Assembly (NCBI RefSeq): GCF_000195085.1
Contig: NC_015380.1
Span: 978,001 to 1,042,000 of the forward strand
From: Candidatus Pelagibacter sp. IMCC9063
GTDB taxonomy: Bacteria; Pseudomonadota; Alphaproteobacteria; Pelagibacterales; Pelagibacteraceae
Direction: 5' to 3'
Length of the DNA: 64,000 nucleotides
Shown: positions 3 to 64,000 of the stretch, one piece after another
Layout of the letters: every line of letters begins with the position of its first letter
How positions within the stretch are numbered: position 1 is the first letter of the stretch
Notes under the pieces: generated by a model
Seen by the model: the letters and a program-made list of their open reading frames with translations, nothing else
What the model was told of the DNA's origin: nothing
The model's database searches: none
Made by a program: the position numbers and the translations under genes

Positions 3-218
3 AAAATAAAGTCTTCCATAAAAAAAAACTGCTCTCCAAGACACGTGCCTTCAATTATATTGCAATGTCCAGACGTACCCAAAACAAAAAGTGGCAAAGT
101 GGTAGAGATTGCAGTTAGAATGTTATTAAACGGAGAGGAAGTTAATAATTTGGAGTCCATAGCCAATCCTGAGTGTTTAAAGTACTTCAGAAATACTGGT
201 TTGGTAAAGCTTAATTAA
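3..218 (+). CDS. Acetoacetyl-CoA synthetase, C-terminal end (5' part outside window)
   Basis: Only the last 71 codons are visible; the gene starts left of the window. The family activates acetoacetate with ATP and CoA to acetoacetyl-CoA in the cytoplasm (ketone-body or polyhydroxybutyrate use). Visible features are SPRHVPSIIL, then KTKSGKVVEIAV, which holds the SGK lysine of the C-terminal subdomain of ANL adenylating enzymes, and a tail with ANPECLKYFR. That tail is typical of acetoacetyl-CoA synthetases rather than acetyl-CoA synthetases, which end differently. The reading frame is open without breaks to TAA at 216-218. Substrate choice is inferred from the tail alone, so another acyl-CoA ligase of the same subgroup remains possible. 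Confidence 0.7.
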   Translation, partial: KIKSSIKKNCSPRHVPSIILQCPDVPKTKSGKVVEIAVRMLLNGEEVNNLESIANPECLKYFRNTGLVKLN

Positions 219-275
219 GCTCCACTATTAGCGATTTTGGTCAACGAGATAAAATCTTGAAGGTGTTTTTCGCCG

Positions 276-341
276 TGAAAAGCATTATTATGCATTTTAT
301 GCATATTAAAGATATCAAATCTAGCTGAAAAGCGTATGCAT
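276..341. repeat. Short direct repeats in the leader of the barrel gene
   Basis: In the 127-base gap before the barrel gene, TGAAAAGC occurs at 276-283 and 326-333, exactly 50 bases apart. The palindrome ATGCAT occurs at 290-295, 299-304 and 336-341. Each TGAAAAGC is followed within a few bases by an ATGCAT. This could be an operator pair or a small local duplication; no clear promoter boxes stand out. Function is not known. Confidence 0.35.
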
Positions 342-345
342 ATCT

Positions 346-1284
346 ATGAAGGTAGAGTTAAAAAATAGTCTTGTCACCGTTCTTTTTGGATTATTGTTAA
401 CAGTTTCGCTGAGTTCAGCGTCTTTAGCTGATACCACCTCTATCAAAAATAATGTTAAAAATTCACTGGATAGCAAAGTTAATTCAAAAATTAATGCTGC
501 TACTGCCGCAGTTTCAAATAAAATCTCTTTTTTTGCAAAAGAAAACCTTGAGAGTATTAAATATTTAGATTTTGAAATTAAAAATCAAGAACGTTTAAAA
601 CCTACGTTCCGAATCATGAGTGTTAATGAGATTTTAAAAATTAATTCCGGAACGATCTTTAATCAAACAAGTTTCAATAACCATGATGGAGATCAGACAA
701 TTAATATAGGCTTGGGTACTAGAAAATTATTCAATAATAATAAAATAATACTAGGCTCTAATATTTTTTATGACCATCAATTTAATGACAAGCATCAACG
801 ATCGGGAGCAGGGGTGGAAGCCATCTCTAGTGTTTTTGATCTGCGAGGAAATTATTACAATGCTTTAAGCGGTAGAAGAACTACCAGCGAAGGTGGAATT
901 GAACGAGCTATGGATGGTTGGGATACGCAAATGGATTACCACCTTCCCATCAAGCAAGATGTCAGTATTTTCTTAAATGCTTTTGAATTTGAAAACCCAG
1001 AAAAAAATAGTGATTTTAAAGTAACCGGAAACAAAATGGGATTGAATGCGAGATTGGGACATTTCTTAATTGAAGCTGGATATATGGATGACAATCTGGA
1101 AAACGATAGTTATTTTGGAAGCATTAAGTTTGTTATCGATTTGGGACAAGAAAAAATTCAAAATTCTAAAAATTTCTTAGAATATGAATATGTCGGTCAC
1201 AAATTATACGAACCCGTAAAACGTGAAAACAAAATACGAGTAGTGAAGATTGCTGCTTCTGGATTATTTGCATCAGGATATTAA
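346..1284 (+). CDS. Stand-alone inverse autotransporter beta-barrel protein
   Basis: Predicted outer-membrane beta-barrel of the intimin/invasin (inverse autotransporter) family, 312 residues. A signal peptide covers about residues 1-28 (hydrophobic core VLFGLLLTVSLSSA, cleavage near SLADT). A polar helical stretch follows (about 29-85), then the barrel. Family hallmarks are visible: INIGLGTRKLF, GSNIFYDHQFNDKHQR, GAGVEAISSVFDLRGNYY and GGIERAMDGWDTQMDYHLP. Family members normally continue into long extracellular Ig-like passenger repeats; here the protein ends about 40 residues after the barrel. The next gene begins 2 bases downstream and encodes a secreted protein, so the two are probably translated together. 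Family assignment is firm; the role (adhesion, surface display or anchoring of the partner) is inferred. Confidence 0.85.
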   Translation: MKVELKNSLVTVLFGLLLTVSLSSASLADTTSIKNNVKNSLDSKVNSKINAATAAVSNKISFFAKENLESIKYLDFEIKNQERLKPTFRIMSVNEILKINSGTIFNQTSFNNHDGDQTINIGLGTRKLFNNNKIILGSNIFYDHQFNDKHQRSGAGVEAISSVFDLRGNYYNALSGRRTTSEGGIERAMDGWDTQMDYHLPIKQDVSIFLNAFEFENPEKNSDFKVTGNKMGLNARLGHFLIEAGYMDDNLENDSYFGSIKFVIDLGQEKIQNSKNFLEYEYVGHKLYEPVKRENKIRVVKIAASGLFASGY

Positions 1285-1286
1285 TT

Positions 1287-2429
1287 ATGAAACATAAAAT
1301 AACTACGTTCCTTTTCTTAATTACATTGGGATTTTCTTTTAATTTATTTTTTACAGAATCTTCTCAAGCTGAGGTATGTGCTAAAACAAATGGTGGGATT
1401 ATCATGAAAGATCCTGCTGTTACAACCCAGACATACACAGACGGAAGTGATACGGTAGACGCCCCCTTTAATTATGCAGACGGAATTGTAGATTCTGAAT
1501 TCAACACAAATAATACTAATGCATGCAATGAAATGCCAGAATATTATGGGGTTTTGATTAATAGAATTGCTATTTGCAAGGAAGACCCTTATGTGGATGG
1601 AGCTAATCCAGCTCTTACATCATGCGTAGATATTGTTAACAAGCCTGCTAACACAACATATACAGAAGTTAGCCCAGATAAAGAGAATGACCTTGTTTCA
1701 GAAGGTCTTATTGATAGTGATTTGATAATCGCACAAGGTTCATATCCTTATGCATTTGTGCTTGTTAATAATAAATTAAAGGTAAAGCATGTTCAAAAAT
1801 ATGTGGAACCGGATGGAACTAATGCTACGATGCGTGGCTTTGGAAATGGTGCTACTGGTATTACAGGAACATATTGTTACACATTAGAAAAAACTACGAC
1901 TTACAGTAATTCTATCTGGGATGGAGCTTACAAAACTGCAATGGGCTCTGGTACTATTGTTCAAGCTGGTGATGGAACTAATGCTACTATGGCATGTAAT
2001 GATACCAAAGCTACAGCAGATACTAGCGCGGAATGGGCTACTGAGATTATCGATCACCTTGGTGGCGATATAAGTGATAAAACAGCTTTGGTAAGTAGTG
2101 CTGACTATTCGATTGGTACAGGTGTTGATGCCGGCGTAGATTTGGCAAATTACATGCTTAAAGCAGGTGGCTTAGTGTTAGCAGATAATGTTGATAACGC
2201 TGTTAGAATTGGAGCTATTTACAGATATGCCAACCCAGTTGTTATTAGCGAAAATACAGTAGGAATAAAATTTGATTTTGGAACAACCTATGGTTCATCC
2301 ATAGATGCCATGGTAGATGGCAGCGATAAAGTGTGGATGAAAAAGACAGGAGTAGATCCTTTTATTATGAAAATTCTTACCAGAGAAAGAGGAGCTGGAG
2401 GAGCTGCAAGAATTGGATCTTGGCGATAG
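1287..2429 (+). CDS. Secreted protein of unknown function, partner of the barrel protein
   Basis: I do not recognise this 380-residue protein. It has a clear signal peptide (residues 1-28, core FLFLITLGFSFNLFF, cleavage after SSQA), so the mature chain starts EVCAK in the periplasm or beyond. The mature part is acidic, rich in Thr, Asn, Gly and Asp, and has six cysteines (one at 31, the rest near 80, 97, 112, 197 and 237), an unusual number that would allow three disulfides. The heptapeptide DGTNATM occurs twice, about 50 residues apart. Its codons are visibly richer in G+C than neighbouring genes. It starts 2 bases after the barrel gene stop, so co-expression is likely. A surface-exposed passenger-like partner is an inference; a periplasmic protein is equally possible. 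Confidence 0.75.
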   Translation: MKHKITTFLFLITLGFSFNLFFTESSQAEVCAKTNGGIIMKDPAVTTQTYTDGSDTVDAPFNYADGIVDSEFNTNNTNACNEMPEYYGVLINRIAICKEDPYVDGANPALTSCVDIVNKPANTTYTEVSPDKENDLVSEGLIDSDLIIAQGSYPYAFVLVNNKLKVKHVQKYVEPDGTNATMRGFGNGATGITGTYCYTLEKTTTYSNSIWDGAYKTAMGSGTIVQAGDGTNATMACNDTKATADTSAEWATEIIDHLGGDISDKTALVSSADYSIGTGVDAGVDLANYMLKAGGLVLADNVDNAVRIGAIYRYANPVVISENTVGIKFDFGTTYGSSIDAMVDGSDKVWMKKTGVDPFIMKILTRERGAGGAARIGSWR

Positions 2430-2526
2430 TATCGTTTTAAAGAATACTTCTAAATTGTTTTAAGTACTCTTATTTACTGCAATAGCTAACGCAGATCTTA
2501 AAACTACCTTGTAAATGAACGCAACA

Positions 2527-2638
2527 GTGTGAGTTTGAGAGCGATTGTGATCGGACGAGGTGAAGTCCATTAGGACGGAGCAACGGTCAGGAAAACAACT
2601 CATACGAGTCTTAAATAAGAACATCAGCTGTTCTTTTT
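2527..2638 (+). ncRNA. Candidate structured small RNA with its own terminator
   Basis: The gap between the secreted protein and tRNA-Ser has no plausible gene, but 2527-2605 can fold: GTGTGAGTT (2527-2535) pairs over nine positions with AACTCATAC (2597-2605). Inside, GATC (2549-2552) can pair with GGTC (2585-2588), and GTCC (2565-2568) can pair either with GGAC at 2553-2556 or with GGAC at 2573-2576, giving alternative hairpins. An intrinsic terminator follows at 2617-2638. The segments CGGACGAGGTG (2552-2562) and CGGTCAGGA recall pieces of the guanidine-III (ykkC-III) riboswitch in the same order, but its main stem is not evident and no transporter follows. Could be a small RNA or the 3' leader remnant of the upstream operon. 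Confidence 0.4.
2617..2638 (+). terminator. Intrinsic terminator after the candidate RNA
   Basis: AAGAACA (2617-2623) pairs with TGTTCTT (2629-2635) across a 5-base loop, and the T run reaches 2638. It would end transcription of the barrel operon and/or the candidate small RNA before tRNA-Ser. Confidence 0.6.
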
Positions 2639-2793
2639 GCGAATTTAAAATCGTTGATATTGCTAGAAAATTATAAGATAAGATCAGCCATTATAAATCA
2701 AGAGAAAGCACATAAAATATAACTTATTTCTATTTATCTTTGGCTAAAGTTGTCTGAAAGTTGTCTGGAAAATAAATATTTTGTGAGTCTTTT

Positions 2794-2822
2794 TTGCAAC
2801 AAACGAATTAGTGTTGTATATC
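2794..2822 (+). promoter_or_regulatory. Sigma-70-like promoter of tRNA-Ser(GCT)
   Basis: TTGCAA (2794-2799) and TATATC (2817-2822) are 17 bases apart. The predicted transcript would start about ten bases before the mature tRNA end at 2839. Confidence 0.5.
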
Positions 2823-2838
2823 AATGCTAACTCAATGC

Positions 2839-2930
2839 GGTTAGGTGGGTGAGAGGCTGAAACCAGTCGTTTGCTAAATGACCTTACGAGTAACATCGTA
2901 ACGAGGGTTCGAATCCCTCCCTGACCGCCA
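2839..2930 (+). tRNA. tRNA-Ser(GCT), reads AGC/AGU
   Basis: Acceptor GGTTAGG pairs with CCTGACC (one T-G wobble), followed by discriminator G and an encoded CCA (2928-2930). The anticodon arm GTCGT-TTGCTAA-ATGAC gives anticodon GCT. The long variable arm (CTTACGAG...CGTAAC) and the G discriminator are serine features. The T arm is GAGGG-TTCGAAT-CCCTC. The next start codon lies only 6 bases after the CCA. Confidence 0.95.
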
Positions 2931-5704: not shown

Positions 5705-6840
5705 AAAAAATTACAATCTTATTAATAAGTTTTTTTTTAATACAAGCTTATAACGCCAATGCATTAATTACTTCTGCCAAGCAGGCAATTTTGATGGATG
5801 TAAATTCTGGCCAAGTTCTTTTTAAGAAAAATGAAAATGAAAAAATTTCTCCTGCGTCTATCACTAAGGTCATGACCTCCATCATAGCTTTTGATCTAAT
5901 TAAAAGCGGTGAGTTGAAATTAAACGAAAAATTCTTAGTTTCCAACAAAGCTTGGAGAATGGCTAAGCAAGGCTATTCTTCTATGTTTATAGTTCCAAAT
6001 GACAGAATAACTGTTTTAAATTTATTAAAAGGTATAATTATAGCTTCAGGAAATGATGCGTGCATCGCATTGGCTGAAGGAATTGCAGGCTCTGAGGCTG
6101 CGTTTGCTTCCATGATGAATGACAAGGCGAAATCAATTGGCATGACTAACACAAACTTTTCAAATTCTTCTGGAATTTATTCTGAGGACAATTACTCAAC
6201 AGTTAGCGACATTAGTTTAATGTCCGTTTATTTAATTAAAGAATTTCCAGAATTGTACAAAATGTATGCAGAGAGAACCTTCACTTGGGATCGTACTGGT
6301 GGAAATCCAATCACCCAATCTAATAGAAATACCCTATTATATAAAAATTCAAAAGTAGACGGAATTAAAACCGGTCACCTTAATGACTCTGGCTACTCAT
6401 TGGCTGCTACCATGCTTGTAAATAATCGTAGGATTTTAAGCGTTGTAAGTGGAACAAATTCACAAAAAGAAAGAGCAAAAGAATCTTTAAAATTATTAAA
6501 TCATGCAATAATTACTACTGAGTTACTTTTGGTTAAAAAAGAAAATCCTCTATTTTCTATCAATACATGGAATGGAAAAAAATCATCAATAAAATTAGAA
6601 TTGGAAAAAGACCTATACATCACTTACTCTAAAAGAAGGTCTAGAGATATTAAGATGTATTTAGAGGTATCCGAACCAATTAAAGATCATTTTAAGGCAA
6701 GTGATCAATTGGGTGTATTAAGAATTAAAGACAAAAACGGGCTAGATATAAAACAGCCACTATTTGCAACCGAAGATTTTAAAAAAATTAATTTTATAAA
6801 AAGATTTTTTAATTCCATAGGTTTCTTAGTATGGGGTTAA
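5701..6840 (+). CDS. dacA: D-alanyl-D-alanine carboxypeptidase (PBP5/6 type, S11)
   Basis: Removes the terminal D-Ala from peptidoglycan pentapeptides in the periplasm. All three penicillin-binding motifs are intact: SxxK at Ser53-Ile-Thr-Lys56, SGN at 116-118 and KTG at 223-225. A signal peptide covers residues 1 to about 21 (ending YNANA). Beyond the catalytic domain there is the PBP5-like C-terminal beta domain (about 280-350) and a hydrophobic tail (NSIGFLVWG) that may anchor it. Length 379 is normal. It starts within the 4-base overlap with the RlpA-like gene and overlaps tmk by 10 bases, so the wall genes and tmk form one operon. Confidence 0.93.
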   Translation: MKKITILLISFFLIQAYNANALITSAKQAILMDVNSGQVLFKKNENEKISPASITKVMTSIIAFDLIKSGELKLNEKFLVSNKAWRMAKQGYSSMFIVPNDRITVLNLLKGIIIASGNDACIALAEGIAGSEAAFASMMNDKAKSIGMTNTNFSNSSGIYSEDNYSTVSDISLMSVYLIKEFPELYKMYAERTFTWDRTGGNPITQSNRNTLLYKNSKVDGIKTGHLNDSGYSLAATMLVNNRRILSVVSGTNSQKERAKESLKLLNHAIITTELLLVKKENPLFSINTWNGKKSSIKLELEKDLYITYSKRRSRDIKMYLEVSEPIKDHFKASDQLGVLRIKDKNGLDIKQPLFATEDFKKINFIKRFFNSIGFLVWG

Positions 6841-8117: not shown

Positions 8118-8309
8118 ATGGCAAAAAAATCACACGTTAAGGTAAGATTAGTTCCTGAAGATAAGCCAAATAGTCGTTTTAACTACTATGTAAAAAAGCC
8201 TACGGCCGGTGACAAGGCTAAAGACAAATTAAAAATGAAGAAATATAACCCTGCCACTAGAAAGCACGAGTGGTTTGTTGAAAAAAAACTTCCACCTCAC
8301 AGTAAGTAA
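8118..8309 (+). CDS. rpmG: 50S ribosomal protein L33
   Basis: Small basic protein of the large ribosomal subunit, 63 residues. The family pattern is clear: MAKKSHVKVRLVPED at the start, then YYVKKPTAGDK, MKKYNPATRKHEWFVEKKL. It is a few residues longer than typical alphaproteobacterial L33 (about 55). No zinc-binding cysteines are present (the C-minus form). It begins directly after the merR stop, and its own stop abuts the stop of the chorismate mutase gene on the other strand, so there is no room for an independent terminator. Confidence 0.93.
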   Translation: MAKKSHVKVRLVPEDKPNSRFNYYVKKPTAGDKAKDKLKMKKYNPATRKHEWFVEKKLPPHSK

Positions 8310-17595: not shown

Positions 17596-17672
17596 CGGGG
17601 TGTAGCGCAGCCTGGTAGCGCATCTGCTTTGGGAGCAGAGGGTCCGCGGTTCGAATCCGTGCACCCCGACCA
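17596..17672 (+). tRNA. tRNA-Pro(TGG)
   Basis: Acceptor CGGGGTG pairs with CACCCCG, followed by A and encoded CCA (17670-17672). The anticodon arm CTGCT-TTGGGAG-CAG places TGG in the loop. D and T arms are normal. The following gene starts 7 bases later. Confidence 0.95.
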
Positions 17673-63353: not shown

Positions 63354-64000
63354 ATGAAGCATCTTAATCTTACAGTACTAATTACAATCTTATTACATTT
63401 TCAGATTGAGTATTCTGAAGCGGGACTGATATCTCCAGTAGAGAAACCTTTATTTGAAACAAGTCAAAGCAATTCACAGATTAATAACAAAAAAATTAAA
63501 CCAGAACCAGTTTCTAATATAAAAGAAAAAACAAAATTAAAGCCTCCTAGTAAATTTAATAATAAAAATAATATTGTTAAAAAACCTACAATAAACAAAA
63601 AAAACTTAAAGGCAGCAAAGACAAATCTAAGCAATACAAGCGCTTCTTTAGCTGGTGGGTTCATACCACCTAGTAAGCCCTTGTTGTTAGGTTTTTCGGA
63701 AACGTCCTCTACTATATTAAAGGATAAAGATTTTAATTTAGCAAAAAAAACTTTTGCCTATGTGAAGCGAAAATCTTGGAATTCAGCATTTAAAACAGCT
63801 AATAAATCTTCTGACCGATTGTTATTAAAAATAGTCACCTGGATGTATTTAAAAGAAAGCAATAACAATTCTACATTTAGGGACTATAAAAAATTTATTG
63901 ATCAAAATCAAAATTGGCCAAGAATATCTCGTTTAAGGTATCTAGCTGAGCACAAAATTAACTACAAAGATTTATCTGCTATTGAAGTGATTGATTTTTT
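63354..64000 (+). CDS. Soluble lytic transglycosylase, N-terminal part (3' end outside window)
   Basis: Open frame of at least 215 codons from ATG 63354 to the window edge. It starts with a signal peptide (TVLITILLHFQIEYSEA), then a lysine- and asparagine-rich linker (about 25-105). From about 120 come helical repeats like the superhelical U domain of Slt70-type enzymes (DFNLAKKTFAYVKRKSWNSA, WPRISRLRYLAEHKI). The catalytic domain would lie beyond the window, so the call rests on this domain and on the common alphaproteobacterial pairing of an slt gene with dapA. Confidence 0.65.
   Translation, partial: MKHLNLTVLITILLHFQIEYSEAGLISPVEKPLFETSQSNSQINNKKIKPEPVSNIKEKTKLKPPSKFNNKNNIVKKPTINKKNLKAAKTNLSNTSASLAGGFIPPSKPLLLGFSETSSTILKDKDFNLAKKTFAYVKRKSWNSAFKTANKSSDRLLLKIVTWMYLKESNNNSTFRDYKKFIDQNQNWPRISRLRYLAEHKINYKDLSAIEVIDF

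Follow-up and report, generated by a model that had tools for sequence, protein, structure and literature searches.

A GC-rich, gene-free block on a genomic insertion in Candidatus Pelagibacter sp. IMCC9063 carries a candidate structured RNA, which we tentatively read, with a probability of about 45%, as the structured 3' end of a surface-protein mRNA, perhaps freed as a small RNA. We analysed one window, a stretch of 64,000 nucleotides covering positions 978001-1042000 of a single 1,284,727-base contig of this SAR11 genome, whose relatives are Pelagibacteraceae; positions below are counted from the first base of the window (Table 1). In our preferred reading, the two surface genes would lie on one transcript, and transcription of this operon would continue beyond its last stop codon (at 2429). 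For the GC-rich segment 2527-2605 a folded domain with a 9-bp closing helix is predicted, and the transcript would end near 2638, at the hairpin 2617-2635 and the U-run that follows. The folded domain may protect the 3' end of the mRNA, or cleavage may release it as a small RNA. As an orphan RNA of one SAR11 genome, seen nowhere else in the collections searched, the element is plausible but unproven.

Table 1. Features of the window discussed in the text, in window positions.
Feature	Position	Strand	Remarks
GC peak	29-108		overlaps a 57-codon ORF that continues the synthetase-like gene in relatives
Insertion, synthetase-like gene end to tRNA-Ser(GCT)	271..2790	.	ends approximate; T-runs at both edges
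Inverse-autotransporter beta-domain protein	346..1284	+	Pfam IAT_beta, E 5.2e-31
Probable secreted/surface protein, partner of IAT gene	1287..2429	+	no Pfam family
Candidate structured RNA element	2520..2638	+	GC 0.51 over 2520-2599; predicted fold
Closing helix P1, 5' strand	2527..2535	+	pairing probability 0.48-1.00
Closing helix P1, 3' strand	2597..2605	+	pairing probability 0.48-1.00
Alternative inner helix, 5' strand	2548..2553	+	predicted to pair with 2584-2589; p about 0.25
Alternative inner helix, 3' strand	2584..2589	+	predicted pairing
GGAC/GTCC hairpin	2553..2568	+	letters present; predicted p <0.05
GTCC-ATTA-GGAC hairpin	2565..2576	+	predicted p 0.40
Terminator-like hairpin and T-run	2617..2638	+	7 bp, loop TCAGC; stem 2617-2635
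Promoter-like site of tRNA-Ser(GCT)	2794..2822	+	TTGCAA-17-TATATC
tRNA-Ser(GCT)	2839..2930	+	ARAGORN and Rfam
GC peak	8198-8277		in a 63-codon ORF resembling ribosomal protein L33 (our own reading)
GC peak	63631-63710		within an ORF that extends past the window edge

Composition was the best sign that the candidate RNA is real. IMCC9063 presumably belongs to SAR11 subclade IIIa. The GC content of that subclade is given in PMC10030771 as 28-32%, and the coding share of three closed IIIa isolates as 96%. GC averaged 0.31 across the 2730 80-nt windows of our stretch that lay outside ORFs of at least 90 codons, and a GC peak was defined as such a window reaching at least 0.42. Eight peaks were found: four were tRNA genes (a fifth tRNA, at 17596, was absent among the peaks), three overlapped genes, and the remaining one was 2520-2599, with a tRNA-like GC of 0.512. 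The peaks at 8198-8277 and 63631-63710 had no Rfam match. That 2520-2599 alone among the eight peaks coincided with no gene made the signal stronger than an earlier, sequence-only reading of this DNA had stated, and we counted it in favour of the 3'-end reading. The claim of that reading that an unassigned structured RNA lies here holds mainly on this evidence. Also present as it described are about 110 bases free of genes (no ORF of more than 54 codons overlapped the candidate RNA), which sit between a surface-protein pair, now seen as the IAT_beta gene and its partner, and tRNA-Ser(GCT). In the SAR11 strain HTCC1062, GC-rich spacers longer than 100 bp are described in PMC2704228 as mostly holding known RNAs.

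Composition also bears on a different explanation, that the block is neutral DNA, a GC-richer remnant of an inserted piece with chance helices, which we consider rather unlikely but a serious rival. The island genes are themselves partly GC-rich, with values of up to 0.475 (positions 881-960), and of up to 0.450 in the second surface gene, when followed in 80-nt steps, but the candidate peak, at 0.50-0.51, lies above every such step and drops to about 0.28 on both flanks, and no gene remnant was detected within it. Two short ORFs were tried as protein remnants and rejected: one of 38 amino acids had neither a Pfam nor a phage match, and one of 54 amino acids had a chance-level Pfam match (E 0.13) and E 0.7 matches to two Rhizobium plasmids that did not resemble it at the DNA level.

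The finding that the block belongs to an insertion missing at the site in three of five same-genus genomes goes beyond what had been read from the window. One of these genomes (G003) aligned to window positions 151-270 (92.5%) and 2817-2896 (96%) in one stretch, with 26 nt alone separating the two aligned parts, and the end of a synthetase-like gene (a name that is our own reading of the sequence) adjoined tRNA-Ser(GCT) in G001, G003 and G005, with no insertion there; we therefore regard approximately 271-2790, some 2.5 kb, as an insertion. The G003 contig begins inside the tRNA; the synthetase-tRNA junction nevertheless lies within the contig. In the compared stretch, G002 and G004 had no synthetase match, and neither island protein was matched in any of the five genomes. 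The insertion holds the IAT_beta protein, the second probable surface protein and the candidate RNA, and contains no further ORF of more than 57 codons, hence none that could be a recombinase. Phage genomes gave no match to island DNA 270-2790, and no repeat within the island involved the candidate RNA. By the insertion and its empty site, the RNA belongs to the same block as the surface genes, which we counted in favour of the 3'-end reading.

The predicted fold gave evidence in both directions. P1 comprised 9 bp including one G-U, with pairing probabilities of 0.96-1.00 in seven pairs and of 0.86 and 0.48 in two inner ones. This closing helix had been noticed by the sequence-only reading and is indeed present, but it is a chance expectation at 2520-2641, where 104 of 200 dinucleotide shuffles contained a helix of at least 9 bp (span up to 120). 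Across the whole spacer (2430-2838) such a helix occurred in 197 of 200 shuffles; the spacer itself had five, and its shuffles averaged 4.76. The commonness of these helices speaks for neutral DNA, as does the modest fold z. The fold energy of 2527-2605 (79 nt) had a z of -2.55, with 3 of 200 shuffles equal or better, and this significance faded as the boundaries widened (-2.09 for 2522-2610, -1.80 for 2527-2638, -1.28 for 2520-2645 and -0.62 for 2500-2660), which we counted against the 3'-end reading. In a scan of 3196 79-nt windows with 40 shuffles each, where the same segment scored -2.42, 2.3% of windows reached -2.55 and 5.3% reached -2; examples such as those at 6807, 8887, 10167 and 45367 had z values of -4.6 to -5.9, again counted against it. 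In its favour, the plus strand outfolded the minus strand at equal boundaries, the latter being no better than shuffles (z -0.64 for 2527-2605, -0.77 for 2527-2638 and -0.75 for 2520-2645).

Within P1, the minimum-energy fold placed an interrupted helix at 2539-2553/2576-2588 (p about 0.57), and the main predicted competition was between this and the alternative inner helix 2548-2553/2584-2589 (p about 0.25). Two mutually exclusive GTCC/GGAC hairpins had been proposed in the sequence-only reading. The letters are there, GGAC at 2553-2556 and at 2573-2576 sharing one GTCC at 2565-2568, but only the pairing of 2565-2568 with 2573-2576 is predicted to form appreciably (p 0.40 vs <0.05). The shared-GTCC arrangement, which was chosen post hoc, occurred as the exact string in 0 of 5000 shuffles and with any GC-rich 4-mer in 13 of 2000.

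A transcript ending near 2638 would rest on the terminator-like hairpin, the first hairpin with a T-run after the stop codon by eye. The sequence-only reading had named a terminator here, and a 7-bp stem at 2617-2635 with a T-run to 2638 is present; the stem has two G-C pairs by our own count, and the default terminator scan, which requires three, reported nothing at 2617-2638, a result counted against the 3'-end reading. The region 2610-2640 had a z of -1.75, equalled or bettered by 11 of 200 shuffles. Between the stop at 2429 and 2617 there was no clearer terminator, and 2430-2485 folded like shuffles (z -0.25). Upstream of the candidate RNA no promoter-like site was found in 2430-2535, where the best score was 3.24 whereas shuffles averaged 5.52, with 94% of 500 shuffles equalling or beating it, and a second promoter scan likewise found none on the plus strand. 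As the weight matrix was an E. coli one that gave tRNA-Glu itself a score of only 2.75, the lack of a promoter carries little weight. With neither a promoter-like site in 2430-2535 by the two scans nor a clearer terminator upstream of 2617, the simplest account of the element is the 3' end of the surface-protein mRNA.

Another serious rival, which we likewise think rather unlikely, is a separate gene for a small non-coding RNA some 115 nt long (approximately 2522-2638), island-borne, with its own promoter and acting in trans. The compact GC-rich unit, which follows the surface gene at a distance of about 97 nt and ends in its own terminator-like hairpin, would suit such a gene, as would its tRNA-gene-like composition, but neither scan showed a promoter-like site upstream, there was no second copy in the same genome, and no relative was accepted elsewhere. 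The tRNA-Ser(GCT) downstream is preceded by its own promoter-like site, at the edge of the insertion. Within the 106 nt leading up to the tRNA this site was the best matrix match, although its score of 5.85 did not exceed the maximum typically reached in shuffles of the region upstream of the RNA; its letters were similar, by eye, in two of the loci compared (L017 and L021).

By the sequence comparisons made, no homologue of the candidate RNA was accepted in any collection searched. The searches used blastn, a sequence-only model (R1) and a model with structure (R2), both models being built from one sequence (alignment A1 consisted of the window stretch and an identical copy, L001); the genome sets overlap and are not independent, and the large ones were scored with stricter filters, so that distant relatives could escape. 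With blastn, one of 61 relatives' genomes matched, the window's own. Among 297 genomes of the family, 228 gave something at E <=1, the best E besides the own copy being 0.0037 and the matches listed reaching at most about 43 nt. Phages gave no blastn match, and plasmids gave three records of 24-28 nt at E 0.1-4, which were taken as chance; two of these (H1 and H3) lay inside coding genes and the other (H2) was named mobF, and they were rejected as relatives of the RNA. At two plasmid loci (L123 and L124), a 25-nt stretch nearly equals RNA positions 2569-2592, at E 0.1-4 and judged chance, and sits in a MobF relaxase gene of Nostoc and in a gene for a hypothetical protein of Aulosira.

R1 matched one of 397 genomes of the order and one of six of the genus (E <=1), in each case the own genome, and three of 385 in the class, where the two extra matches (about 17-18 bits; E 0.007 in one genome) overlapped open frames of 216 and 296 codons and were rejected. 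R2 matched one of 299 genomes of the phylum, again the own, and two of 37 relatives (E <=1), one of which was rejected as a match of 19.7 bits, antisense inside a 185-codon ORF and aligned mainly at the terminator. Across the window and 26 loci, R2 matched the window alone, and the best ungapped comparison of the core with the loci, own copies aside, was 29 of 40 positions, in the plasmid matches. Of the exact patterns searched in IMG/VR, GGACGAGGTGAAGTCC occurred in 48 stretches and a two-segment pattern in 20, none of which continued like the RNA among those listed and most of which resembled coding DNA by eye; four other patterns had no matches. Occurrence in one genome only is also what neutral DNA would show.

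The sequence-only reading had proposed a covariance search against Rfam, which was run; the Rfam 15 models yielded no accepted family at either gathering or permissive thresholds. Sub-threshold matches at the permissive setting were OrzO-P on the other strand at 2440-2513 (23.9 bits, cut-off 60), mir-2002 over the terminator-like hairpin (15 bits) and P14 at 2699-2783. Likenesses to the hammerhead and hairpin ribozymes, RNase P, SRP RNA and tmRNA were dropped because Rfam showed nothing; housekeeping RNAs would be expected in relatives too. The element was not found in the literature, judged by titles among the matches listed.

Relatives of the second surface protein occurred in eight other genomes among the 197 of the order searched, four of them (L126, L127, L128 and L130) with an IAT-like frame alongside by eye. 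None of the eight had a similar RNA element in the 450 nt after the stop codon, and R2 was unmatched at their loci, which we counted against the 3'-end reading; the idea that the RNA goes with the gene pair was rejected on the same count. The IAT protein had one distant relative (28% identity) in one of the five other genomes of the genus. This IAT-like frame of G003 (L168, G003:C2:17650-18348) contains an internal TAA and lies at a different site. The patterns tried for the surface genes in IMG/VR returned no relative, and we found no literature joining 'inverse autotransporter' and 'Pelagibacter'.

A ligand-sensing riboswitch, possibly a relative of guanidine-III (RF01763, ykkC-III) with a moved main stem, is very improbable. 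Its attraction lies in CGGACGAGGTG and CGGTCAGGA, which occur in the candidate RNA in guanidine-III order. With up to two and three mismatches to the guanidine-III segments allowed and both strands of the window scanned, the pair, which had first been noticed by eye, was found once; among 20,000 mononucleotide shuffles of the 79-nt RNA none contained it. RF01763 had no match over the window at gathering (36 bits), nor on 2400-2850 and 2522-2612 with Rfam up to E 10, and matched none of 61 relatives' genomes and one of 14 control genomes. As a yardstick, seven loci were taken from the 17 records of a plasmid search with a guanidine-III aptamer, and five of the seven were Rfam-confirmed at 42.5-68 bits. 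All five carry CCCGGACGA as 5' segment where the window has ATCGGACGA, and thus CGGACGA only; all five carry GUACCCGG, where the window has GCAACGG. In guanidine-III the GUACCCGG strand pairs with 5' CCGG, and GCAACGG would by eye allow at most three of the four pairs. The 3' strand of the main stem reads CAAGACG in four members and CACGACG in the remaining one. The window there has AAAACAACTC, with AAAACAAC where the four share CAAGACG, and for its AACTC the predicted partner is the region 2527-2535 upstream. The likeness lies partly (GGUG, UCA) at positions where true members vary.

What the candidate RNA has in common with guanidine-III is CGGACGA followed, as in the family, by a GGUCAGGA-like stretch. 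It differs in lacking the CCCGG and GUACCCGG common to all five confirmed members, a stem strand where one would be expected behind the first segment, an emrE/sugE/speB-type gene downstream and any Rfam score. Guanidine-III RNAs are described in PMC2864571 as sitting upstream of guanidine-related genes such as emrE or speB. After the candidate RNA come the terminator-like hairpin, tRNA-Ser and a hydrophobic ORF without a Pfam family, and by the ORF list of the window there is no coding gene before 2937. A riboswitch is unlikely because nothing coding follows before that point, which lies beyond a tRNA with its own promoter-like site; together with the prediction of only one of the two hairpins, this leaves unsupported the switching role suggested in the sequence-only reading, which had called mutually exclusive pairings typical of switching RNAs. 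That reading, which saw neither the main stem nor a downstream transporter, was right to leave guanidine-III unassigned. A guanidine-III-like aptamer with its main stem relocated, as a free-standing permuted RNA with no gene to control, is extremely improbable; it can be drawn on paper, with the strand 3' of GGUCAGGAAAAC pairing with 2527-2535 instead of inside the pseudoknot loop, and the loop so freed carrying its own GTCC/GGAC hairpin.

Among known systems, the orphan spacer RNAs of SAR11 (e.g. the SAR11_0636 element), as described by Meyer et al. (2009, PMC2704228), are likewise GC-enriched non-coding spacers in a very AT-rich genome, with no clear cis-regulated gene and possibly a separate transcript. 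The four less-supported SAR11 motifs are given there about 400 to 1250 metagenomic representatives each. Unlike these motifs, the candidate RNA lies on an insertion in one genome, with no other copy found in the genome, phage, plasmid and IMG/VR searches. If functional, it would be an RNA carried on a small surface-protein island of a streamlined ocean bacterium with scant non-coding DNA, and a small addition to the SAR11 orphan RNAs; the general picture would be unchanged unless the RNA binds a ligand or acts in trans. Bacterial 3'-UTR elements and 3'-UTR-derived small RNAs follow the last gene of an operon, are structured and have an intrinsic-terminator-like end. With 3'-UTR-derived RNAs the candidate shares its position after the last gene, a predicted structure and a terminator-like hairpin.
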